DNA of 64,000 nucleotides from Noviherbaspirillum cavernae (GTDB lineage Bacteria > Pseudomonadota > Gammaproteobacteria > Burkholderiales > Burkholderiaceae_D): positions 3,100,001-3,164,000 of the forward strand of contig NZ_QYUN01000002.1 of NCBI RefSeq assembly GCF_003590875.1. The letters run 5' to 3'. Positions 10,672-40,539 of the stretch are shown in pieces; the stretch's first letter is position 1; every line of letters starts with the position of its first letter. The notes beneath the pieces were generated by a model that ran no database searches, was not told where the DNA came from, and saw only the letters and a list, made by a program, of their open reading frames with translations. A program made the position numbers and the translations under genes.

Positions 10672-12210
10672 TCAATGGTCGCCACGGTGATTCCTGTTGC
10701 CGGCAAGCGCAACCTCCAGCGCATTCAGGTTTGCGCCAAGGAAATCGCGCAGCGCGGCGCGCGCCTCGTCCGGATTGTCGGCATAAGGCGCGAATACCAT
10801 CATTGCCGCCCCATCGTCGCCGCGCATCAGGAACTTTTCCTTCGCCTGCAGCAGCTTGCCGAGATAGTCGTTGGTCGTGAACCTGCCGTCGATCCAGTAC
10901 CAGTACCAGACCAGCAATGGCCCCGACGGTCCCTGAATCCGCGCTTCGCGCAATGCCAGCATTTGCTGTGAAATGATTTCACTGCGCGCCGAAGTATTCA
11001 CCCTGCGCCAGTGCGGATCCTTGTCGGCCACCAACCTGTTGGTCGAACTGATCAAGCCCTCGCCACGCATCTGATTGCGGTAATACATGATGGACACGCC
11101 GACCTTCTGCGCGTCGCGTTCGAAGAACCGGTACAGCTCTGCCTTGGGAGGGAAGTAGCGCGGCTTCCAGTCAGTGAAGGCCACGGCCTCGCTCCACTGC
11201 GCCTTGAAATCGCCGAATTCGATCGGCGAAGGATTCGCGACTGCGCGTTCGATGTACAAGGCGTAGAGCGGCCATATCGCGACGCACACCACCACGCCAG
11301 TGGCGGCGGCAAGAATGCGCCTGCGTGACACGGAGACATCGCGCGCCTGCGGCCGGCCTTGCTCTGCGGCGCGCGGCTGTTCCTCCGCCTCGCGCCAGAA
11401 ACTGCCGATCCAGAACATCAGGAACATGACGAGTCCGAAGAACAGCCAGCCGTAAATCAGGTGATCCACGCCCACCGCCAACTGCATGCCGCTCACATGT
11501 CCGATCATCACGATCATGTAGGCGCGCAAGCCGTTGGCAATGATCGGCACGGCGATCGACACCAATATGAACATCGCGCGGCGAAGCGGCGAACGATAGC
11601 TCAGGTATGCGTAAATGCAGCCGAGCGTGAACGAGGAAATCAGGTAGCGCACGCCGCTGCACGCCTCCACAACGGACCAGCTGCCGCTCGGAATGGTGAA
11701 ATTGCTGCCTTCGCGCAGGACCGGGATGCCCGTCAGCTGAAGTGCCGCGACCGTGAAATCCGCAGTGAATGCAATCAGCGGCTCGATGAAGATTTCGCCG
11801 AAGGGCACCGCAAGCAAAAGGAACAACAGCGGGAATGCCATCGACCAGGCCATGCGCGGGCCGAGTATCGCCAGCGCCGCGATCGGCACCATCGCAACCA
11901 GTGCGTATTGCCGCACGACCTGTACATCGCCCAGCTCGGCCAGCAACCAGCCGAAGCCGCATGCAGCCAGCAGCAGAAAGGCGGGCCAGCATGGCGCCGG
12001 CTGCCGCGTCGACAGTTCGTCGCGCCGCTTCCATATCAACCACAGGCTGATCGGCAGAATGATGTAGCCGTGCGCAAAGGTTTCCGAACTGTTCCAGATG
12101 GAGACAATCGACCGTGCGGTATCGAAGTAAATGGCGAAGGGCGCGAACAGGGCCAGCGCAATTGCGAGGCCTGTAACCAGCGTCATCGGTTGAACCCGTG
12201 CCGAAATCAC
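10672..12210 (-). CDS. xrtA: exosortase A fused to EpsI domain
   Basis: A 512-residue inner-membrane protein. Residues 1-270 form the multi-helix exosortase core with the catalytic Cys184 in VEACSGVRY, Arg229 in NGLRAYM, and candidate His238 or His251. Residues 300-500 form a soluble EpsI-type domain (QWSEAVAFTDWKPRYFPPKAE... WYWIDGRFT). Exosortase A is proposed to cleave PEP-CTERM tails after Pro-Glu-Pro and pass the protein on to the cell surface, in concert with the polymer. The start is GTG at 12210, overlapping the previous stop as GTGA; an ATG eight codons downstream (12186) is the alternative. Its substrates in this window are at 30732 and 44106. Confidence 0.95.
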   Translation of the reverse strand: MISARVQPMTLVTGLAIALALFAPFAIYFDTARSIVSIWNSSETFAHGYIILPISLWLIWKRRDELSTRQPAPCWPAFLLLAACGFGWLLAELGDVQVVRQYALVAMVPIAALAILGPRMAWSMAFPLLFLLLAVPFGEIFIEPLIAFTADFTVAALQLTGIPVLREGSNFTIPSGSWSVVEACSGVRYLISSFTLGCIYAYLSYRSPLRRAMFILVSIAVPIIANGLRAYMIVMIGHVSGMQLAVGVDHLIYGWLFFGLVMFLMFWIGSFWREAEEQPRAAEQGRPQARDVSVSRRRILAAATGVVVCVAIWPLYALYIERAVANPSPIEFGDFKAQWSEAVAFTDWKPRYFPPKAELYRFFERDAQKVGVSIMYYRNQMRGEGLISSTNRLVADKDPHWRRVNTSARSEIISQQMLALREARIQGPSGPLLVWYWYWIDGRFTTNDYLGKLLQAKEKFLMRGDDGAAMMVFAPYADNPDEARAALRDFLGANLNALEVALAGNRNHRGDH

Positions 12211-30731: not shown

Positions 30732-31259
30732 TTATTGCTTGCGGCGACGGGTTGCTGCAAAACCAAGCAGACCCAATCCCAGCAATGCGAGTGATGCAGG
30801 CTCAGGAACCTTTTGTGCATTCTGAATATTGATGGTTCCGCTATAGCTGGCGGCAAGTGAAGTACCCACCGGCAAGTCCGGGCCGGCGATGCCGTGGACA
30901 ACCAGTTCAATCGGGGCAGTAAGGTTCAAAGGAATCGTAAATGCCGTTTCCATGATGCCGTTCGGGCTCAAGGTAAACGGATTTCCATTGATAAACGCCG
31001 AAACAAAATTGATGTTTGAACTTGGAGAGTGGCTGATGGTAAAGATACCTGAATCCACAAGGCCGCTAAGCAAGGGAACAAAAATAAACGTATCGGTGAA
31101 GCTGCCGGCAAACTGATGCGTTGCTCCGAATTCAGCAGTGTAGGATCCGGGAACGGCGACGTTTGGCGTCAATGTCACAACCGTGTTGATTGGTTCAGCA
31201 AAGCTGCTGGCTACAGATAATGCCAGTCCCAAGGCAAGGATGAAATTCTTGATTGTCAT
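30732..31259 (-). CDS. FxDxF-family PEP-CTERM surface protein
   Basis: A 175-residue secreted protein. Signal peptide: residues 1-21 with cleavage near SSFA-EP. The FTDTF segment at 54-58 matches the FxDxF family of small PEP-CTERM proteins. The sorting tail starts at VPEPASLALLGLGLLGF (151-167) and ends RRRKQ: the PEP motif, a hydrophobic helix and a basic end, the substrate of exosortase A. No enzymatic motif is seen; it is probably an extracellular matrix component. It is monocistronic, with its own sigma-54 promoter upstream and an intrinsic terminator downstream. The AT-rich surroundings contrast with the flanking GC-rich genes. Confidence 0.93.
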   Translation of the reverse strand: MTIKNFILALGLALSVASSFAEPINTVVTLTPNVAVPGSYTAEFGATHQFAGSFTDTFIFVPLLSGLVDSGIFTISHSPSSNINFVSAFINGNPFTLSPNGIMETAFTIPLNLTAPIELVVHGIAGPDLPVGTSLAASYSGTINIQNAQKVPEPASLALLGLGLLGFAATRRRKQ

Positions 31260-31540: not shown

Positions 31541-32617
31541 TCACGCCAAATCCGGCGAGATGAATGCTTTGTGAAACAGATGACGCGCAAGGAGCAAGGG
31601 CGGCATGCGAAGCCAATTAGCGCGCAGATACAGCATCCTTCGCGACATACCAGCCAGCCGGTCCCTGCAACTCGGGTGATTCGGCAGGAACGCACGTGTA
31701 TAGAGCTGATCCATGAGCGCAAGAATCTGGCGATGGGGGCGGCCGCTGCCGGCGGCTTCCATCGCGTCCGGCGGAATTGCTGCGTGCAGCATTCGCTCTG
31801 TATAACGCAGCGCATAAAAGAGCGGGCGCGTCAGTTCCAGTTCCTTGGCGCGCCGGACAAGGTCGGGCCAGAACGACGGCAGGCCGCCGAAATGTGCAAG
31901 CAGGCAGTGAATATCCACCAGATCGCGCAGACCGTTGTCCAGTTCGCCTTCATGGAACAAATGCGCGGCGCTGTGCAGGACCATGTCGATCGGCGCCAGA
32001 ACCTTCACGTCGGCATGCGATGCAAGCGATTGAGCGGCCGTGCGAAGTTTTTCGGGATCCGGACGCAAGGCTGCTGTTTCCGGAAGAATCGCGTGATGCA
32101 CGTCGATCACGGTCATTCGTTTGACATGCTGCATGGGCGGCAGCTCATGCATCCAGGTCCGGTAATAGCGCTGGTCATATTCATCGTGGTGGGTAGTCGC
32201 CCAGCCATGCAGCGTCAATGCGGCTTCCACGACATCAAGGCTGCCCTTGGGAACCAGGATGTCGACATCGGAGAAGAGACGGCCTCGCGCGGGCGGCAGC
32301 CTGGCCGCCACGTAGGCCGCCCCCTTCAAAAGGATGAGCGGCACGTTTGCCTTCGCCAAGGCTTTCCTTATCTGCGCGATTTCCCAATCAACTGCCTGGG
32401 CATGCCGTTCGGCGATGGCGTGCGCCCACCCCAGGTGTTCTCGCGGCCGGGACGGAACTTGCTCGATATGTCCACGCTCTTCGAGCAAAGCGTGAAGCGT
32501 CGCCAGCAGATTGGCGCGCCGCGCCTGGCGCAACAGCAGATCCCAGTCTGCAAGGTCTAGCGATTTCGACGTTTCCGGCCGCCGAAGTATCTGCAATAAC
32601 AAGGGAGCGGCAGTCAC
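31541..32617 (-). CDS. nucleotidyltransferase family protein (NTP_transf_5-like)
   Basis: A 358-residue protein. The nucleotidyltransferase core is ILLKGAAYVAARLPPARGR followed by FSDVDILVP; Ser-Asp-x-Asp (116-119) supplies the two metal-binding aspartates of the pol-beta fold. Downstream is a helical region including HLFHEGELDNGLRDLVDIHCLL. Proteins of this type are found next to HprK-related kinases and PqqD-like proteins in exosortase-bearing bacteria; their substrate is unknown. The start is GTG at 32617, overlapping the kinase stop as GTGA, so translation is coupled. Last gene of the four-gene cassette. Confidence 0.82.
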   Translation of the reverse strand: MTAAPLLLQILRRPETSKSLDLADWDLLLRQARRANLLATLHALLEERGHIEQVPSRPREHLGWAHAIAERHAQAVDWEIAQIRKALAKANVPLILLKGAAYVAARLPPARGRLFSDVDILVPKGSLDVVEAALTLHGWATTHHDEYDQRYYRTWMHELPPMQHVKRMTVIDVHHAILPETAALRPDPEKLRTAAQSLASHADVKVLAPIDMVLHSAAHLFHEGELDNGLRDLVDIHCLLAHFGGLPSFWPDLVRRAKELELTRPLFYALRYTERMLHAAIPPDAMEAAGSGRPHRQILALMDQLYTRAFLPNHPSCRDRLAGMSRRMLYLRANWLRMPPLLLARHLFHKAFISPDLA

Positions 32618-33534
32618 GTCAGGACCGTCGCTGGTTTCAGTGCAGCGAATGCCGAGACGGCTTCGTCCAGTTGGCTGTAGCTGAAATCATGACACTGTGC
32701 GTTTTCGAGCAATCCTGCCAACGCTTCAAACCCATCAGCGCCAAGCGTGCTGTAGTTGAATGCGTTGTCGGCGACACGCATGAGAGCGCGGGACTGGGGC
32801 AGCATATCGAGTCGCGTCGCCGCGCCGTTCTGGTATTTCGGGAAAATGACCCATGCAAGCGGCACAGCTTCCATAGCGCGCGCAACGCTGTCGGCAGGAG
32901 GCTTCATGTGCGCGACCGTTCCCTTCATGGTATCGGCAACCTCGCGGCTGAGAATTGCGCGCGGCTCGTAACGCTTGAGAAGGTCGATGGACGCATTTTT
33001 CAGGCTGATCGGTCGCGGCAGCGGCATGATTTTCCGGTCCCTCAAACGCACCAACGCCAGTTCGTCCGACAGCAGGCGCCAGCCGCGATTGACCAATGCC
33101 GCGCACAAGGTGCTTTTGCCCGATCCCGGCGGCGCCGGCAGCATCGCGGCAAAGCCGTCTTTCTCAATCACCGCCGCATGGATCATCAGATAGGAGTGGG
33201 CATGACTGGATACGCACCAGTTGAGGCCCCATTCGAGCATGGGAAATGCCTGATCGAGCGGCAAGGGCTTGAATGTGGAATCGCCATCGAACAGAAACAA
33301 TACCTGTGGCTTGAACCACCTTCTGAAGTTCCTCGGGCGCGCAAGGCGGACGTGAAAATCCGCGAAGCCGCCTTGCTCAATCAGAGGAAAGTCCGCGTAA
33401 AGCAGATGGATACCTTCCGCCACGCGCGGAATCGCGGTTTGCAGATGCGTGACGAATGCCCCGGTTCGAATGGCGATACCATGCTGCGCGAGCCGCCGCT
33501 TGAGATCCGGCTCGGTGAGTGAAGAGACGTTCAA
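32614..33534 (-). CDS. HprK-related kinase A
   Basis: A 306-residue P-loop protein resembling the C-terminal domain of HPr kinase/phosphorylase. The P-loop APPGSGKST is at 134-142, with a conserved HAAVIEKDG strand before it and RGWRLLSDELALVR after it (the Asp-Glu pair where HprK has its catalytic Asp). It lacks the HprK N-terminal regulatory domain. Family knowledge: such proteins are encoded with a PqqD-like protein and a nucleotidyltransferase; the phosphorylated target is not known. The start is TTG at 33534 within a TTGA overlap with the PqqD-like stop; no closer ATG or GTG was found. Confidence 0.85.
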   Translation of the reverse strand: MNVSSLTEPDLKRRLAQHGIAIRTGAFVTHLQTAIPRVAEGIHLLYADFPLIEQGGFADFHVRLARPRNFRRWFKPQVLFLFDGDSTFKPLPLDQAFPMLEWGLNWCVSSHAHSYLMIHAAVIEKDGFAAMLPAPPGSGKSTLCAALVNRGWRLLSDELALVRLRDRKIMPLPRPISLKNASIDLLKRYEPRAILSREVADTMKGTVAHMKPPADSVARAMEAVPLAWVIFPKYQNGAATRLDMLPQSRALMRVADNAFNYSTLGADGFEALAGLLENAQCHDFSYSQLDEAVSAFAALKPATVLT

Positions 33535-33806
33535 GATGGCACGCGCTCTATCAATGCCAGCGATTCGAGGTCGGCCAGAATGCCTTCCGTCTCGAGTGCC
33601 AGTTCATGATGCAGTTCGGTCTGCCACAGCGAGGCAAGCCGCTCGGCCAATGCCGCTGTATCGGATGGCGATTGTTGCAACGCGACGAGAATATGCCCGG
33701 CGGCGGCACCGAGTAAATGCGTATCGCCAGACAGGGGGTGGTAGGCAACGAACTCGTCGCCCAACACGCGCAGACTGAATGGCTGACCTGGAGCTACTTG
33801 CCACAT
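33531..33806 (-). CDS. HPr-rel-A system PqqD-like peptide chaperone
   Basis: A 91-residue protein, MWQVAPGQPFSLRVLGDEFVAYHP at the start, then LLGAAAGHILVALQQ and helical repeats to the end. It has the length and pattern of PqqD/RRE-fold proteins, which in RiPP pathways hold a precursor peptide for a modifying enzyme. It is translationally coupled to the HprK-related kinase (4-nt overlap) and 40 nt downstream of the Tat-exported protein gene. The natural inference is that it presents a protein or peptide to the kinase or nucleotidyltransferase; this has not been shown. Confidence 0.82.
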   Translation of the reverse strand: MWQVAPGQPFSLRVLGDEFVAYHPLSGDTHLLGAAAGHILVALQQSPSDTAALAERLASLWQTELHHELALETEGILADLESLALIERVPS

Positions 33807-33846
33807 GATTGGAACAGGGAAGCGACGGGAAAACGCGAAAACCGGC

Positions 33847-34425
33847 TTATGACTGCGTCGCTTGCAGGTAATTGACGATTTCCGATGCATTCCAATCCAC
33901 GGTAGCGATCGGCGAAAAAGCGCCACGGGACTGCCATTCCGTGAACATGTCCTTGATCCTGTCCTCCCTCAGGAAGGGCGTCCAGCCTTTTCGCGCATTG
34001 AGAAATGCGGCGACAAGGTGCATGCCGAGGTTGTGCTTGTCGTCCTTCTTGTGCGACAGCAGTTCCAGCAAGGTGTATTTGCCATAGACGGAAGTGGGGC
34101 TGCAGCCGAAGACATGGTTGAATTGGGTATCGGTCGATACGGGCCAGCTGCCCAGGTGGTTCTTCCAGTAGCCTGGCGAGCGGCCCTGGCTGGCGACAGG
34201 TTGGCCGTGCGAGCTTTGATTGCCGGACAAAAAGCCGGACGGGGATTTGCTGACGGCGGCGCCGATTACAGGACGGCTGGCCAGCGTGATCAGGACGCCG
34301 GATGCTGCCAGGCCGGCCTTGGCGAAATGTCGGCGGGACGCATTGAGGGACGGCGTGTGGGTGGCACCCGCTTGTGTCGGGTCGTCTTTCTCGCTCTCGC
34401 TGTGCTGATGATCCTTGGTAGTCAT
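33847..34425 (-). CDS. Tat-exported protein with PGYWKNH motif, unknown function
   Basis: A 192-residue protein with a textbook twin-arginine signal: SRRHFAKAG (30-38) followed by a hydrophobic stretch to about residue 56. The mature part carries GRSPGYWKNHLGSWP (81-95), a motif recurring in secreted proteins of several phyla, then a mostly helical region, ending in YLQATQS with Ser at the C-terminus. Tat export suggests folding or cofactor binding in the cytoplasm first. GGGGAG precedes the ATG. It is the first gene of the cassette with the PqqD-like protein, kinase and nucleotidyltransferase, so it is a good candidate for what they modify; that link is inference. Confidence 0.8.
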   Translation of the reverse strand: MTTKDHQHSESEKDDPTQAGATHTPSLNASRRHFAKAGLAASGVLITLASRPVIGAAVSKSPSGFLSGNQSSHGQPVASQGRSPGYWKNHLGSWPVSTDTQFNHVFGCSPTSVYGKYTLLELLSHKKDDKHNLGMHLVAAFLNARKGWTPFLREDRIKDMFTEWQSRGAFSPIATVDWNASEIVNYLQATQS

Positions 34426-34666: not shown

Positions 34667-36901
34667 CTATCGGGGCACGATCGCGAATTGCGGGCCGCTG
34701 TAATAGTTCGGCTTCACCGAGCGCCCCATGAACACGGTCCATGCCTTGGCCGCATCGGCGATGCCCGAATCAGCACTGTAGGCCAGCGCCGGCTGCATAT
34801 TGGATGGAAAGCCGGCATTGTCCGACGAATATCCCACCATTTCGCCGAGCTTCAAGCCGAGATTGGCGGCCATTTCGGCACTCGCGCATGAAAGGGCTGT
34901 CAGCGCCGGCGGATTACTCGCCTGGTACGCCTGACCGATGCTCGTGTATATCGGTCCGCTTGTCGTGTCCCGGACATGCAGGCTGTAGATGGAGCCAAGG
35001 ATCCAGCAGAAGCCGGGGCCAACCATCCTGCTTACGGGGAATTTCGCTTTCCACGCAAGCAAGGTCTGCGCTTTTTCAAAGCCGAGCTCCGCCGCATGAC
35101 CGGCTGCGGCGGTGAAGAAATCGTCCTGCCATGGCGCAATGCCACGCCCGCCGTCGTAGACTATGGCATTGGCATCGATAATCGCGCCGAGGCTGTTGTC
35201 CGGATTCGGATTGCTGGCATAGGTGGTGTTGTACCAGTCGAGGTTATCGGACAGGAACTTCGCGAACTGCGCTTTGAAGCGGTCGCTGTCCGGCATGATG
35301 TAGGCGGCCTCGGCCAAGGTGCGCAAGATCCACGCCTGGCCCCGCACCTGGGTCGCGTGAAACAGACCTTTCACATTGCCACGGTATCCCGGATTGCTCT
35401 GAAACAGATTCCACATGGCCCAGAATTGCAATTCCTCGAGATAGTAATGTTCTCCCGTCACCACATACGGCAGGTAGGCGAATCCCGGCTGATGCGAGGC
35501 ATCGGCGTTGTGCGGATTGGTGCATACCCCGCCGCATGCAGGAAACGCTTCGTACTTTTTCGTTGCAGGATTGAAAGTATCGGTGGAACGTCCGAGTATG
35601 GTCATGTACGGATAATCGACCAGACTGACGGGGCGGTCGGTGTTCTTGTCGCGGTAGTGCGTGGACCAGCTCCCCGCCAAATCAGCCGTTCCCAGCGTGG
35701 CGATCTTGGCATCCCTGTCCATGCTCAACAAATAAGTTGCGGCCCACCCTGGAAGCAGGCCGATGTCAGGCCTGCCGCCGGTCTGCGGCATGTATTGCAC
35801 GGCCAGTCCGTTGCGCATCGGCTCGGTCACCGCACCGCTGAATTTCGTCCGAATCGATGTCAGCGCCACCGGCGAAATCGAGAACGTCCGGTCGTAATTC
35901 GGCACCGCCTTCGTGGCGATCAGGTAAGCCGTGTGATGCCTGACATGGACTTGCGGTGCGGTTCCCCACCAGAACGTCTTGCGCCAGCGCGCGTGGTGGT
36001 AGTGCGTCAGCGCAGCTTTCGTGTAAGCGGTCTGACCGCCGACGTTGACCTGCACGTCGTAGGTGAAGTTCTGCGGGGCGGCAACATAGGCCCAATTGTT
36101 TTCGATGATGACATCGACCTTGGCCTTGTTGAGTCCGGCATACGAACGAATCGCAAAACGCGCCGCCAGGTGGGGATGTTCGATGCCATCGGCAGTCATC
36201 AAGGGGGCCGACACAATCCATTCGTTCGCGACGGGTCCGGAGATCCACGATGTGTACTTGCCTGCAGCCAACAACGCGGCGGCGGATGCGCCATAGGTCT
36301 GGCCCGCGAGATTGATGCTGACATCCGCCGCAAAGCCCGCGTTGAGCAATTCGGCGGGAGCCGATGCCGGCGCGGCAGTTTTGTCGGTCTTGACGAGGGT
36401 GATTTTTTGAGTCTGCCCCGCGAGCAGCTGCGGCATGATCGCCGAAAAAATACCGTGACGCATCGAGCCGTCCGGATGGGTGGCCTTGACATCGACTTGC
36501 AGCGGAATCATCGTGCCGTCGGCCAGCTTGCCTGTGAGCGAGTTCGCTTGCGGCACATCCCCTTGAGCGAAGACCTGGCCGAACGTGACCGGCACGCTGG
36601 TTTGCGCGCCGGAAGCGGTGCTGTCGATATTGACGAAGGTCACCTCGGAACTGGAGCGCGGGGGTATCGGCGTGGGAGTGAACGTCGAAGAGGAAGCGCT
36701 ACTGATCCCCCCTGAGCTGCCCGCAACGACGCGACCCGCACTTTTTTCGACGGCGGTTACGGATGAGGCCGCCTGAAATTCCGACGCAAATTGTCCGCCG
36801 GATGACACCGCTGCCGATTGGCCGCCGCATGCACAAAGGCCGCCGCCAATCAGCAAAAAAACAGCAACGCGCAATTCTTGAGACAACGACGGCAGTTTCA
36901 T
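34667..36901 (-). CDS. RIFT-barrel lipoprotein, possible polysaccharide lyase
   Basis: A 744-residue protein with a lipoprotein signal (LIGGGLCACGG, Cys near residue 25), a Ser/Thr-rich linker (about 27-90), then a segment resembling the N-terminal RIFT barrel of rhamnogalacturonan-lyase-like proteins (VPVTFGQVFAQGDVPQ, DGTMIPLQVDVKATHPDGSMRHG). The C-terminal half (about 440-740) is rich in aromatics and helices, with WNLFQSNPGYRG and WILRTLAEAAYIMPDSDRF, suggesting an alpha-barrel sugar-acting domain. It is probably an envelope-anchored enzyme acting on a polysaccharide, perhaps the polymer made here; catalytic residues could not be assigned. Transcribed alone, 240 nt upstream of the Tat-protein gene. 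Confidence 0.65.
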   Translation of the reverse strand: MKLPSLSQELRVAVFLLIGGGLCACGGQSAAVSSGGQFASEFQAASSVTAVEKSAGRVVAGSSGGISSASSSTFTPTPIPPRSSSEVTFVNIDSTASGAQTSVPVTFGQVFAQGDVPQANSLTGKLADGTMIPLQVDVKATHPDGSMRHGIFSAIMPQLLAGQTQKITLVKTDKTAAPASAPAELLNAGFAADVSINLAGQTYGASAAALLAAGKYTSWISGPVANEWIVSAPLMTADGIEHPHLAARFAIRSYAGLNKAKVDVIIENNWAYVAAPQNFTYDVQVNVGGQTAYTKAALTHYHHARWRKTFWWGTAPQVHVRHHTAYLIATKAVPNYDRTFSISPVALTSIRTKFSGAVTEPMRNGLAVQYMPQTGGRPDIGLLPGWAATYLLSMDRDAKIATLGTADLAGSWSTHYRDKNTDRPVSLVDYPYMTILGRSTDTFNPATKKYEAFPACGGVCTNPHNADASHQPGFAYLPYVVTGEHYYLEELQFWAMWNLFQSNPGYRGNVKGLFHATQVRGQAWILRTLAEAAYIMPDSDRFKAQFAKFLSDNLDWYNTTYASNPNPDNSLGAIIDANAIVYDGGRGIAPWQDDFFTAAAGHAAELGFEKAQTLLAWKAKFPVSRMVGPGFCWILGSIYSLHVRDTTSGPIYTSIGQAYQASNPPALTALSCASAEMAANLGLKLGEMVGYSSDNAGFPSNMQPALAYSADSGIADAAKAWTVFMGRSVKPNYYSGPQFAIVPR

Positions 36902-37173
36902 CTTGACTCCTCCAATACGTTAATCGGGGTTTCCGCGAGATGTGCCTGTACTGCTGTCCGGATGGATGTAGTTATAGTCGAAATATTTCTTCAAAGCAAT
37001 TTTTAATATCGATCGCCACATTGTCAAAGATGTCTTTTCCTCCTTCCGCTTGTTCAAGCTTGCATGGCAAAGCTCAGGAAGAATGACCGGCCCTGATGCA
37101 ATTTGCTTTGCTCCAGCGCAACCAATACACTCCTTTCCGCGCAGAATGCATGTTCGACAACAAAGAGAAATCC

Positions 37174-40100
37174 ATGACACGAGCGGGAAACACGCTTCAA
37201 CGAATCGGCCTTTATGCGGGCCTGGCGTATCTGGCATTCGTGATTTACGGCAGTCTTGTACCGCTCGGATTCACTTACCTCGATCCATCCGAGGCATGGC
37301 AGGCATTTGGCCGGATTCCCTACCTGGCGCTCGGCATCGGCTCGCGCGCCGACTGGATCGCCAACATCCTGCTCTACATCCCGCTCACGTTCATCTGGTC
37401 CGGCGTTGTCAGCCAGGCCGCCCGCGCTTCCGCGCGCATCGCCGGCTCGCTTGCCGTTCTGGCGGCAGCAATCGCCTTGTGCGTCGGCATCGAGTTCGCG
37501 CAACTCTACTTCCCGCCCCGTACCGTTTCGCTCAATGACATACTGGCCGAAGTGATCGGCAGCGTCGCCGGCATCGTCCTGTGGCACGCGCTCGGCGCGC
37601 GGATGATACCCTGGCTCGCCGCATTACGCGCCGGCGGCAATGCGGGGCGGCTTGCCGCACTGTCGACTGCGCTGGCGATATACGTGCCGGCCTATCTTGC
37701 ATTGAGCCTGTTTCCCTTTGATGTTGTCGTGTCGTCGGCAGAACTCGCGGCGCGTCTGGGCAACGGGCGCGACAATCTGTGGCTGTCGCTCGACGCCTAC
37801 CGCAGCCCGGCACGTTGCGCGGTTCAGCTGACACTCGAAGTGCTGCTTGCGCTTCCGTTGGGAATCATGGCTGTGCGCTTCACGCCCGCTTTCTCGCGTA
37901 CACCCGACCGTTCGAGCGTGCGCATCGCCCTGCTGGCGGGGGCCGTCCTGGGCCTCACGATCGAGGGTGCGCAGCTCCTCCTGAATTCGGGCGTTTCACA
38001 AGGGATGTCAGTATTGACGCGCGCGGCGGGCGCGGGCCTGGGCGCGCTGGCCTGCAAGCATTTGCCGGCGGAACGCGCCGCCCGCGCATTCATCCTGCTG
38101 CGCAAGGCACGCTGGCTGGCATTGCCGCTCGTGCCGCTCTACGTCGCAGGACTGGCGCTCCTGCAGGGATGGAAAATGCATGAGTGGCTGGACTGGGACA
38201 GCGCTTTGCAAAGGCTTCCGGACGTGCATTTTCTGCCGTTCTACTACCACTACTTCACGACCGAAACCGCCGCGCTCGTCAGCTTCTGGTTTACCTCCCT
38301 TGCCTACGCGCCGCCTGGCGTGCTGCTGTTCTGGATGACGGACACCGCGCGGCGGCGCGGCATGCTTGCGTCAGCCATCCTTGGCGCGCTGCTTGCGTCG
38401 GTGTTCGAATTCGCGAAACTCTTCCAGCGTCATTTGCATCCGGATCCGACCAATGTACTGATCGGCGCGGCCGCTGCCGCCGCAGCCTGCTGGCTGATGC
38501 ACTGGTTGAACGCGATGCTGACGCCGGCTGTCGCCGCACACTCGCACACACACCCTGCAACTGCGACCGCAACGCCGCTGCCTGCGCAGCAGGCGGACAC
38601 GAGCGCTCATGGCGGATTCAAAGTGCCGGCCCTGGTGTGTGCCAGCCTGCTGGCGTGGGCCATCGCAGACTATCCGCTCGGCATGCATTGGCTTGCCGCG
38701 GGTCTCGCAACCTATCTCGTCATCCTGTACCGCTGGCAGCATGCATGGCTCGTTCTGGTGCCCGCCGCACTGCCGGTGCTGGACCTTGCGCCGTTGAGCG
38801 GACGCTTCTTTGCCGATGAATTCGACTACCTGCTGCTGGCGACGATTGCGCTCGCCTACTGGCGCTGGCCACCGGGAAAATCCGCGCATCGCCTTGCGCC
38901 GGCGGCATTATGCGTGTTCGCCTTGTTTCTGCTGTCTGCCGTGTCGGCAGTGCTGATCGGCGCATCGCCCTTTCCCTCGCTCGACATCAACGCGTTCAGC
39001 AGCTATTACAGCCCGTATAACGCGCTGCGCATGGGGAAAGGTCTGATGTGGGCAATGCTTCTGCTGCCGTTGCTGAAACATGAACTGGATCGGGACGCCG
39101 CCACCGCGCATCGCCGCTTCGCGTTCGGCATGACACTGGGTGTGTGCGCGGCGGGAGCATCCGTGCTGTGGGAGCGCATCGCCTTTCCAGGCTTGTTCAA
39201 TTTCAGCAGCGGTTACCGCGTGGTCGGCATGTTCTCGGGCATGCATGTCGGCGGGGCCGCGATCGAGGCGTACCTGGTGCTGGCAATGCCGTTCGTCGCG
39301 TGGTGGTCGCTCACCGTGCGGCACCCGCTTGCACGCCTGTTCGGCGCGAGCGTGTTCGCGCTCGGCGTCTACGCGATGGTGGTGACCTATGCGCGCGGCG
39401 GCTACATTGCGCTGGCGCTGGGCATGGTCGTTCTTGCGGTAGCCGCCCTGTTGCGCACGCCGGCCTCGTCCGGACCTTTGCGGGCTGCGGCCGGCGCGGC
39501 CGTGCTGCTGGCGGGAGCCGCCGCCGCATGGCTCGTCGTGCACGGCACACACCTGAATGACCGGTTCTCGACCAGCGGCAGCGACTTGCATGCGCGCGCG
39601 GCGCATTGGGAAGACGCCCTGCAGATGATGGATGACGACGTCGCCACCACGCTGTTCGGCATGGGTACGGGCCGCTATCCCGGGCTCTACCTCTGGCGCA
39701 GCGGTGAGGGCGTCAAGCCTGCAACATACGGCTTCAGGAACGAAACGGGCAACACCTGGCTCGCGCTGGGCGGCGGCTCGCCCCTGTATGTCGAACAGAT
39801 CGTCAACGTGCAAGGCAACCGCCGCTATCGCCTGAGCTTTTCGGCACGCAGCAGCGCCGGCACCGGTGAGCTGCGCCTGCCGCTGTGCGAGAAGTGGATG
39901 CTGTATTCGGCCAACTGCATCGCGCAATCGGTCAGGCTCGGCGAGACAAACGGGCAGTGGAAGCGCTTTAGCGTCGAGTTCGATACGACCAGGCTGCCGT
40001 CGCGCGAATGGTATGCGCAGCGTCTGCTCAAGCTTTCCATCCATAATCCGCACGCCGCCTCGGTCGCCGACATCGACGATGTCTCGCTGATGTCCGACGA

Positions 40101-40539
40101 CGGCAGAGAGCTGCTGCGCAACGGCAGCTTCACGCAAGGGATGGATCACTGGTTTTTCGCCACCGACAATCATCTGCCGTGGCACATCGAGAACCTGTGG
40201 CTGCAGCTCTACTTCGAGCAGGGTGCGGTGGGACTGCTGCTGTTTGCGCTGCTGGCAGTGCAGTCCGGCGTGGCGCTGCGGCGGCGCCATCGGGACAAGG
40301 GCTTGCCCGTGCCGGCGCTGGCCGCTGCGCTGATCGGCTTTCTCGCGCTGGGCGCGCTCAACAGCCTGTTCGATTTTCCGCGCCTGAGCCTGCTGTTCTA
40401 TCTGCTTGCGTCATCAGCCATGCTGCAGGTGACGCCGCGATCACGCGCTGCGTCGGACGATGACGAGCATGCACTGGCACCGGCGCATCGTGATGTCCGG
40501 CGCGAGCGCGCATACATTGCGGCGCACGCGACGATGTAA
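37174..40539 (+). CDS. VanZ-like / O-antigen-ligase fusion with inserted beta-sandwich-like module
   Basis: A 1121-residue inner-membrane protein. The N-terminal 440 residues look like repeated VanZ-type units: DWIANILLYIPLTF with FPPRTVSLNDILAEVIG; then CAVQLTLEVLLALPLGI with IEGAQLLL; then EFAKLFQRHLHPDPTNVLIG. From about 490 it resembles Wzy/WaaL enzymes, with TYARGGYIAL in the membrane and the loop end HIENLWLQLYFEQGAVGLLLF. Between GMGTGRYPGLYLW and that loop end, residues 850-1000 form a soluble segment (YVEQIVNVQGNRRYRLSF... SVADIDDVSL... GMDHWFF) of carbohydrate-binding-module character. It should polymerise or transfer glycans. The ATG at 37174 follows AAGAGAAA; an ATG at 37150 is possible. 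The gap 36902-37173 shows nothing else recognisable. Confidence 0.82.
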   Translation: MTRAGNTLQRIGLYAGLAYLAFVIYGSLVPLGFTYLDPSEAWQAFGRIPYLALGIGSRADWIANILLYIPLTFIWSGVVSQAARASARIAGSLAVLAAAIALCVGIEFAQLYFPPRTVSLNDILAEVIGSVAGIVLWHALGARMIPWLAALRAGGNAGRLAALSTALAIYVPAYLALSLFPFDVVVSSAELAARLGNGRDNLWLSLDAYRSPARCAVQLTLEVLLALPLGIMAVRFTPAFSRTPDRSSVRIALLAGAVLGLTIEGAQLLLNSGVSQGMSVLTRAAGAGLGALACKHLPAERAARAFILLRKARWLALPLVPLYVAGLALLQGWKMHEWLDWDSALQRLPDVHFLPFYYHYFTTETAALVSFWFTSLAYAPPGVLLFWMTDTARRRGMLASAILGALLASVFEFAKLFQRHLHPDPTNVLIGAAAAAAACWLMHWLNAMLTPAVAAHSHTHPATATATPLPAQQADTSAHGGFKVPALVCASLLAWAIADYPLGMHWLAAGLATYLVILYRWQHAWLVLVPAALPVLDLAPLSGRFFADEFDYLLLATIALAYWRWPPGKSAHRLAPAALCVFALFLLSAVSAVLIGASPFPSLDINAFSSYYSPYNALRMGKGLMWAMLLLPLLKHELDRDAATAHRRFAFGMTLGVCAAGASVLWERIAFPGLFNFSSGYRVVGMFSGMHVGGAAIEAYLVLAMPFVAWWSLTVRHPLARLFGASVFALGVYAMVVTYARGGYIALALGMVVLAVAALLRTPASSGPLRAAAGAAVLLAGAAAAWLVVHGTHLNDRFSTSGSDLHARAAHWEDALQMMDDDVATTLFGMGTGRYPGLYLWRSGEGVKPATYGFRNETGNTWLALGGGSPLYVEQIVNVQGNRRYRLSFSARSSAGTGELRLPLCEKWMLYSANCIAQSVRLGETNGQWKRFSVEFDTTRLPSREWYAQRLLKLSIHNPHAASVADIDDVSLMSDDGRELLRNGSFTQGMDHWFFATDNHLPWHIENLWLQLYFEQGAVGLLLFALLAVQSGVALRRRHRDKGLPVPALAAALIGFLALGALNSLFDFPRLSLLFYLLASSAMLQVTPRSRAASDDDEHALAPAHRDVRRERAYIAAHATM

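Follow-up and report, generated by a model that had tools for sequence, protein, structure and literature searches.

Organization of the cassette

The window analysed here is a 64,000-nucleotide stretch of the Noviherbaspirillum cavernae genome (contig NZ_QYUN01000002.1, positions 3,100,001 to 3,164,000). At positions 31541-34425 it holds a cassette of four minus-strand genes, encoding a protein with a twin-arginine translocation (Tat) signal, a PqqD-like protein, an HprK-related kinase and a nucleotidyltransferase (Table 1). Sequence inspection and a check of the open reading frames (ORFs) verified this order, which an initial annotation had described, together with the 4-nt overlaps joining the last three genes (TTGA at 33531-33534 between the PqqD-like and kinase genes, GTGA at 32614-32617 between the kinase and nucleotidyltransferase genes). 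The Tat gene is separated from the PqqD-like gene by 40 bp, counted from an inner ATG. The full PqqD-like ORF spans 33531-33926, and the inner ATG at 33806 is the likelier start because the family model TIGR04353 matches ORF residues 55-127.

The three partners of the Tat protein pass the cut-offs of their families: 398.8 bits for the kinase against TIGR04352 (NCBIfam, cut-off 200), 58.2 bits for the PqqD-like protein against TIGR04353 (PqqD_rel_X; NCBIfam, cut-off 35) and 200.9 bits for the nucleotidyltransferase against PF14907 (Pfam, cut-off 31.2). NCBIfam names the PqqD-like protein 'HPr-rel-A system PqqD family peptide chaperone', and the window cassette is an HPr-rel-A system (TIGR04352, TIGR04353) with PF14907. 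The motifs read earlier are all present, namely the HprK-type P-loop GSGKST of the kinase (residues 137-142), the Ser-Asp-x-Asp motif of the nucleotidyltransferase (SDVD, with Asp117 and Asp119), and the PGYWKNH motif and C-terminus YLQATQS of the Tat protein. The latter matched none of the Pfam and NCBIfam models at E values up to 1 and so stands outside the NCBIfam models of the system. Its counterparts in two public plasmid records, from Vibrio alfacsensis and Sphingomonas parapaucimobilis, are called 'hypothetical protein' beside HprK-related kinase A genes, and both carry a Tat-type signal. We found no paper on the HPr-rel-A enzyme set in the open-licence literature.

It seems probable to us that the cassette is an operon akin to those for ribosomally synthesized and post-translationally modified peptides (RiPPs), acting on its own first gene product, which would be tagged on a serine and then exported through the Tat pathway. 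The enzyme families are known; new here for HPr-rel-A are a likely substrate left unnamed in annotation, a testable target serine, two precursor classes and a link with exosortase.

Table 1. Features of the cassette and its surroundings (window coordinates)
Feature	Position	Strand	Remarks
Tat-signal protein	33847-34425	-	192 aa; likely substrate; N-region, Tat signal with Arg31-Arg32, flexible Ser63-x3-Ser67 (SPSGFLSGNQS), folded PGYWKNH domain at ~80-190
Predicted target motif codons	34219-34239	-	Residues 63-69, S-G-F-L-S-G-N, including Ser63 and Ser67
PqqD-like protein, predicted RiPP recognition element	33531-33806	-	TIGR04353; 91 aa from inner ATG
HprK-related kinase A	32614-33534	-	TIGR04352; 306 aa, TTG start
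NTP_transf_5 nucleotidyltransferase	31541-32617	-	PF14907; 358 aa, GTG start
Exosortase A (XrtA)	10672-12210	-	TIGR03109, 355 bits, cut-off 208; context only
FxDxF-family PEP-CTERM protein, neighbour	30732-31259	-	91.1 bits, cut-off 50; context only

Co-occurrence of Tat protein and kinase

Our data show that the Tat protein belongs to the HPr-rel-A system and that all four genes are found side by side in many proteobacteria. Kinases above the TIGR04352 cut-off were present in 17 of 100 related genomes and in 27 of 274 genomes of the class, the window's own being in both samples, which makes 43 loci; stretches of up to 20 kb around each kinase were taken for inspection. In 42 of the 43, the surroundings of the kinase include a gene for a Tat-signal protein. 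At the sole miss (L099; locus and genome labels are ours) the contig starts 265 bp upstream of the gene for the predicted RiPP recognition element (RRE), that is, the PqqD-like protein.

A profile made from 33 Tat proteins matched all 17 kinase-bearing relatives and none of the 83 others (Fisher test, 1.5e-19), which bears out the co-occurrence on which the initial annotation had staked its case; 14 of these 17 had themselves supplied rows to the profile. The three absent from it (G073, G087 and G064) owe their match to the signal region (E 2e-6 to 1.4e-5). At most 32 candidates per genome were scored in this search, and the 38 kinase-free relatives that exceed this number gave no match (0/38) when searched again with all candidates scored. 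In the class sample 8 to 11 candidates were scored per genome, so that misses are possible, and the profile matched 31 of 274 genomes, comprising 25 of the 27 with the kinase and 6 of the 247 others. The two kinase genomes that it missed are G358 (contig end) and G190. For four of the six others (G179, G183, G198 and G314) the match is restricted to the PGYWKNH domain, and in the other two (G200 and G283) it falls on tiny Tat peptides beside weaker kinases. In G114, too, the profile matches only this domain, within another protein, and the Tat protein of its cassette belongs to the second class described below.

A further 80 loci with named organisms, the best 80 of 125 found and nearly all in Pseudomonadota, overlap in taxa with the 43, so the two sets are not independent samples. 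At 76 of the 80 a Tat protein or homologue is encoded no more than 2.5 kb from the kinase; this number, like the 42 of 43, is a hand sum over several scans with some loci judged by eye. Four of the 76 were found by eye, and at L152, L195 and L196 the twin arginine is hidden by a contig end or by the ORF start. The four loci without a Tat protein are L180 and L211, both at contig ends, and L200 and L225. A plain regular expression for Tat signals, applied 100-1300 bp upstream wherever enough sequence was available, found an ORF in 59 of 73 loci versus 7.2% (559/7772) of random anchors, and a few of these hits may be due to chance, for example that at L182.

The conserved serine

In the alignment of 33 Tat proteins, whose mean column identity is 20%, only Met1, Arg32 and Ser67 are invariant. 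Arg31, Cys59, Ser63, Cys79, Gly81, Trp87, Trp94, Phe106, Ala139, Leu142 and Asn143 (window numbering) are nearly so. The signature of Tat substrates is present, a twin arginine followed by a hydrophobic stretch: Arg32 is kept in 33/33 proteins and in all 50 of a further set, Arg31 in at least 90% of the 33 and in 48 of the 50. In the same 50 proteins Ser63 is found in 45 and Ser67 in 42, in a fixed-length alignment that misplaces some gaps, so that some of the losses, checked in part, are misalignments.

Just after the signal, Ser-x3-Ser occurs in 81 of 82 proteins of the first class versus 34.5 in shuffled sequences (maximum 48), and the stricter form S[GASEV]xxS[GASNDCP] in 68 of 82 versus 9.6 (maximum 19). 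The one miss, L079, comes from a mis-set signal end, and the alignment shows its motif as S-A-W-M-S. In the AlphaFold2 model the domain at ~80-190 is well folded (pLDDT ~96) and residues 61-70 are disordered (pLDDT below 50). Ser67 is thus predicted to sit in a flexible stretch between the Tat signal and the folded domain, which fits a kinase target. It likely lies ~12 residues past the signal cleavage point, judged from a V-x-G site read by eye.

A different serine had been put forward initially, the C-terminal one (Ser192), since the window protein ends in serine and kinases of lasso peptides modify a C-terminal serine (according to the review PMC9266682). Comparison of C-termini led us to abandon this idea: a terminal serine is present in only 10 of the 82 relatives from its class, and the invariant serine is internal. 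Moreover, the lasso B2 model PF13471 has matches in 4 of 43 genomes and none on the kinase's contig, some contigs being short. We regard Ser192 as a very improbable target.

As a side observation, residues 59 and 79, on either side of the serine motif, are serines in the window protein and cysteines in most relatives (44 and 38 of 50), as though both partners of a disulfide had disappeared together.

Two precursor classes

At eight of the 43 loci the Tat protein has no phmmer match to that of the window. Together with 21 proteins from the further loci these make up a second class (n = 29), in which the motif [CA]xxS[LFIVM] stands near the C-terminus, 2 to 13 residues following the serine. It is present in 29 of 29 versus 2.9 in shuffles, a count that is partly by construction and not independent, because class labels were assigned by eye and drew partly on the motifs. 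Each motif occurs at shuffle level in the other class (the first-class motif in 1/29, the second-class motif in 1/82).

Precursor class follows the kinase tree. The class label requires 2 changes on the tree versus 25.8 in shuffles, none of 500 being as low. The tree was built without the precursors; its bootstrap had yet to converge fully, and nearly identical sequences favour the clustering of whatever label is used. Eleven of 123 loci were left out of it (L084, L099, L172, L186, L195, L180, L196, L200, L211, L213 and L225), either because the precursor was not found or was cut by a contig end, or because its class was unclear. The motif count also dropped L152, with its signal outside the ORF, to give 82 + 29 of 112, and for L229, whose frame was a mechanical one of 580 aa, it used only the C-terminal 150 residues.

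The shortest precursor counted (L094) has 74 aa, that is, a Tat signal and about a dozen residues. As it hardly extends past the signal, it points to the signal region as the leader. It should be noted separately that at four loci of the class with the C-terminal serine (L094, L096, L101 and L103) the nucleotidyltransferase gene lies upstream of the Tat gene and is read from the other strand.

Predicted recognition element, kinase and nucleotidyltransferase

The predicted structure of the PqqD-like protein (pLDDT 95.7) has the winged-helix RRE fold. The first 12 rows of its Foldseek search against the PDB are all proteins of RiPP pathways (E 2e-4 to 0.055, TMq 0.77-0.56): TbiB1 with leader at the top, lasso B1, PqqD, ThcOx, McbBCD and a sactipeptide enzyme. 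The model therefore sides with the PqqD/RRE assignment given initially. The RRE would read the Tat-signal region, the only part that we see to be common to both precursor classes.

His119, Lys140, Asp157 and Glu158 of the kinase are kept in 43 of 43 sequences, and Lys98-Gly99, Arg113, Asp117, Asp119 and Asp172 of the nucleotidyltransferase in 42 of 42. Their conservation supports the retention of catalytic-type residues by both enzymes. A role of the kinase as the genome's HPr kinase/phosphorylase, regulating carbohydrate uptake, might be suggested by its P-loop and histidine of HPr-kinase type and by a weak match to HprK of known structure. This role is already contradicted by its score against TIGR00679 (HPr kinase/phosphorylase), which is 16.9 bits and thus below the cut-off of 240, and by a separate HPr kinase elsewhere in the genome (338.4 bits). 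We give it almost no chance. Since the genome has this other HPr kinase, the cassette kinase is free for other work.

The exosortase locus

The cassette lies within an exosortase A (XrtA) locus. On one side are XrtA, a chain-length determinant, a decarboxylase, an acyl-CoA ligase and the PrsR-type and PrsK regulators; an XrtA-system glycosyltransferase and the FxDxF PEP-CTERM protein adjoin the cassette, and on the other side are hydrolases 1 and 2 of the exosortase A system. The earlier statement that the cassette sits between exosortase genes thus holds for genes of the exosortase A system, which flank it on both sides; exosortase A itself is found on one of them (Table 1). The window Tat protein differs from the substrates of this system in matching no PEP-CTERM model of NCBIfam, and for this reason it is probably no exosortase substrate.

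A link of the cassette with exosortase is supported beyond the window. Exosortase (TIGR02602, E up to 0.001) was detected in 17 of 17 kinase-bearing relatives versus 24 of 83 others (2.3e-8; 100 related genomes) and in 25 of 27 kinase genomes versus 60 of 247 others in the class sample (2.5e-12; 274 genomes), by Fisher tests that ignore phylogeny. In nine of the 17 relatives it lies no further than 25 kb from the kinase; in the remaining eight it is distant or on a different contig. The two kinase genomes of the class sample with no exosortase match are G151 and G156, and the cassette of G151 still adjoins an exosortase-A-associated decarboxylase and ligase. Two Sphingomonas/Sphingobium loci whose flanks were scanned have phosphate transporter genes as neighbours instead.

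This setting among polysaccharide and PEP-CTERM genes would also suit a scheme in which the three partners act elsewhere, for example on a PEP-CTERM protein or on the precursor of a polysaccharide, with the Tat protein exported unmodified as a partner or sensor. We consider such a scheme rather unlikely. The known role of the RRE fold, here a predicted one, is peptide binding; the Tat protein nearly always accompanies the kinase; its invariant serine is in a disordered stretch, as expected of a kinase substrate; and the class of serine motif tracks the kinase tree.

Several observations concern the surroundings alone. Next to the window cassette, 34667-36901 encodes a protein of 744 aa whose N-terminal domain is PcRGLX-like (Pfam), and 37096-40539 encodes an 1147-aa protein with a VanZ match and an O-antigen-ligase match below the cut-off (Pfam). 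The pst phosphate transporter genes beside the Sphingomonas/Sphingobium cassettes are at L217:1823-5377, L224:3945-6609 and L232:1-743, and a Vibrio plasmid cassette (L231) adjoins genes for 2-aminoethylphosphonate transport.

Comparison with lasso peptides and linear polyphosphorylated peptides

Two known pathways use related enzymes. As described in the review PMC9266682, the kinases PadeK (paeninodin) and PsmK (pseudomycoidin) phosphorylate a serine of a lasso peptide, the C-terminal one; lasso kinases have a His-Lys-Asp-Asp set; and PsmN, a nucleotidyltransferase homologue, is needed to place hexoses on the phospho-Ser. The window cassette resembles them in its HprK-like kinase and nucleotidyltransferase, and its RRE model is nearest to TbiB1, a lasso B1 protein. 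It differs in that the C-terminal serine of the precursors is not conserved and in that these have 74 to about 300 aa and are unthreaded. The cassette is not a lasso cluster, because PF13471 is missing from the kinase's contig, in some cases a short one, in the 43 genomes.

PsmN bears directly on the last step, since the same review leaves open whether it acts by direct glycosyl transfer or via a nucleotide. As a variant, the PF14907 enzyme could be a true nucleotidyltransferase and the phospho-Ser could carry a nucleotide instead of a sugar. Lys98-Gly99, Asp117, Asp119 and Asp172, present in 42/42, speak for this; the lasso peptides obtained from the psm cluster were, however, hexosylated in a PsmN-dependent way (PMC9266682). 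We treat the variant as a tentative option, less likely than not.

Deinococcus proteins annotated as lasso B2 contain a stretch like the window nucleotidyltransferase. One of them, a plasmid protein annotated as 'lasso peptide biosynthesis B2' (L233:3773-5113; 32% identity, E 4e-8), may be a fusion.

The linear polyphosphorylated peptides (LPP) reported from Bacillota in 2026 are made with a discrete RRE, an HprK-like kinase and a nucleoside triphosphate (NTP) transferase (PMC13381572), the same three components that the window cassette has. In the account given there, LppK polyphosphorylates Ser3 of the core, soon after the leader, no macrolactam cyclase takes part, and the clusters are often in capsular polysaccharide loci. 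LPP clusters encode an SpI-type peptidase and an MsbA-like exporter of their own, the leaders carry a [Y/W]xxP motif, and the paper describes these peptides as confined to Bacillota (PMC13381572). The words twin-arginine, Tat, proteobacteria, Pseudomonadota and exosortase are absent from the main text of that paper in a whole-word search.

In our precursors, [YW]xxP within 30 aa before the twin arginine was found in 1 of 82 first-class and 0 of 29 second-class proteins (0.5 and 0.3 in shuffles). Neither an SpI-type peptidase nor an MsbA-like transporter was found among the 13 flanking window genes scanned (20147-43927), two of which matched no family. Lacking the motif, and with neither a peptidase nor an exporter of these kinds in the flanks covered, the cassette would work in a similar way but is not an LPP cluster. 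Here, by contrast, the Tat signal would replace peptidase and exporter, a folded protein is the predicted product, and nearly all loci are in Pseudomonadota.

Proposed mechanism

Tat carries folded proteins, and ATP and nucleotide-sugars are cytoplasmic. We propose that the PqqD-like RRE captures the Tat-signal precursor and that the HprK-like kinase then phosphorylates the conserved serine of Ser-x3-Ser, most likely Ser67. The PF14907 enzyme would add a hexose or a nucleotide onto the phospho-Ser. The finished protein, already folded, would leave through Tat, and signal cleavage would come last. Export by Tat makes sense because modification and folding would both occur in the cytoplasm and Tat carries folded proteins. 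The order of kinase and nucleotidyltransferase is borrowed by analogy from pseudomycoidin. That the Tat protein is the substrate, and which of its serines is modified, we infer from the associations and conservation given above; the phosphorylated or nucleotidylated product put forward by the initial annotation would follow. Precedents in related enzymes are the phosphorylation and hexosylation of lasso peptides (as reviewed in PMC9266682) and the phosphorylation of LPPs (as reported in PMC13381572).

A number of points weigh against this mechanism. No activity was seen for LppN, the NTP transferase of the LPP pathway (PMC13381572), which makes the nucleotidyltransferase step weak. Only two PDB matches of the RRE model reach E 0.001, and the conserved kinase residues align with His, Lys, Asp and Asp of HprK in a match that is itself weak (E 0.14). 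L200 and L225 have kinase, RRE and NTP matches, and no Tat protein was found at either. The lack of a [YW]xxP motif, the losses of Ser63 and Ser67 in the 50 further proteins and the limits stated with the counts above (profile rows supplied by the matched genomes, few candidates scored in the class sample, selected loci, overlapping samples and classes labelled by eye) count on the same side.

The setting, shared with polysaccharide loci, suggests a role of the product in the extracellular matrix. Going further, the tag might be a sugar-phosphate-serine (phosphoglycosyl) handle, built in the cytoplasm by RiPP enzymes, through which a Tat-exported folded protein is joined to the polysaccharide of the exosortase locus, giving a bacterial proteophosphoglycan with the Tat signal as leader; we see this as a long shot.

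Our proposal would supply the curator-named enzyme set HPr-rel-A with its missing substrate and target serine. If it is correct, the RiPP chemistry of kinase and nucleotidyltransferase extends from peptides of Bacillota to folded, Tat-exported proteins of Pseudomonadota, and the Tat signal serves as leader. It also offers a modified secreted protein to look for in exosortase bacteria, whose polysaccharide loci contain genes of no known function. What it predicts is precise, namely +80 Da plus a further group on a single serine, from a single operon.

Related occurrences

Kinase matches below the TIGR04352 cut-off, which enter none of the counts, were examined in 20 loci. By regular expression and by eye, a Tat-signal peptide of 57-149 aa was found nearby in six of them (L134:7512-7784, L135:2850-3065, L139:4576-4749, L140:4946-5209, L144:1964-2236 and L145:3241-3690), and the L140 peptide contains SNLSGN. 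There may be a wider set of systems combining a Tat peptide with a kinase.

The PGYWKNH domain is likewise wider than the cassette, because it matches alone, away from cassettes, in frames of 302-1352 aa (G179:C1:389949-390278, G183:C6:171849-172229, G348:C1:3747088-3747351 and G114:C37:129742-130065).

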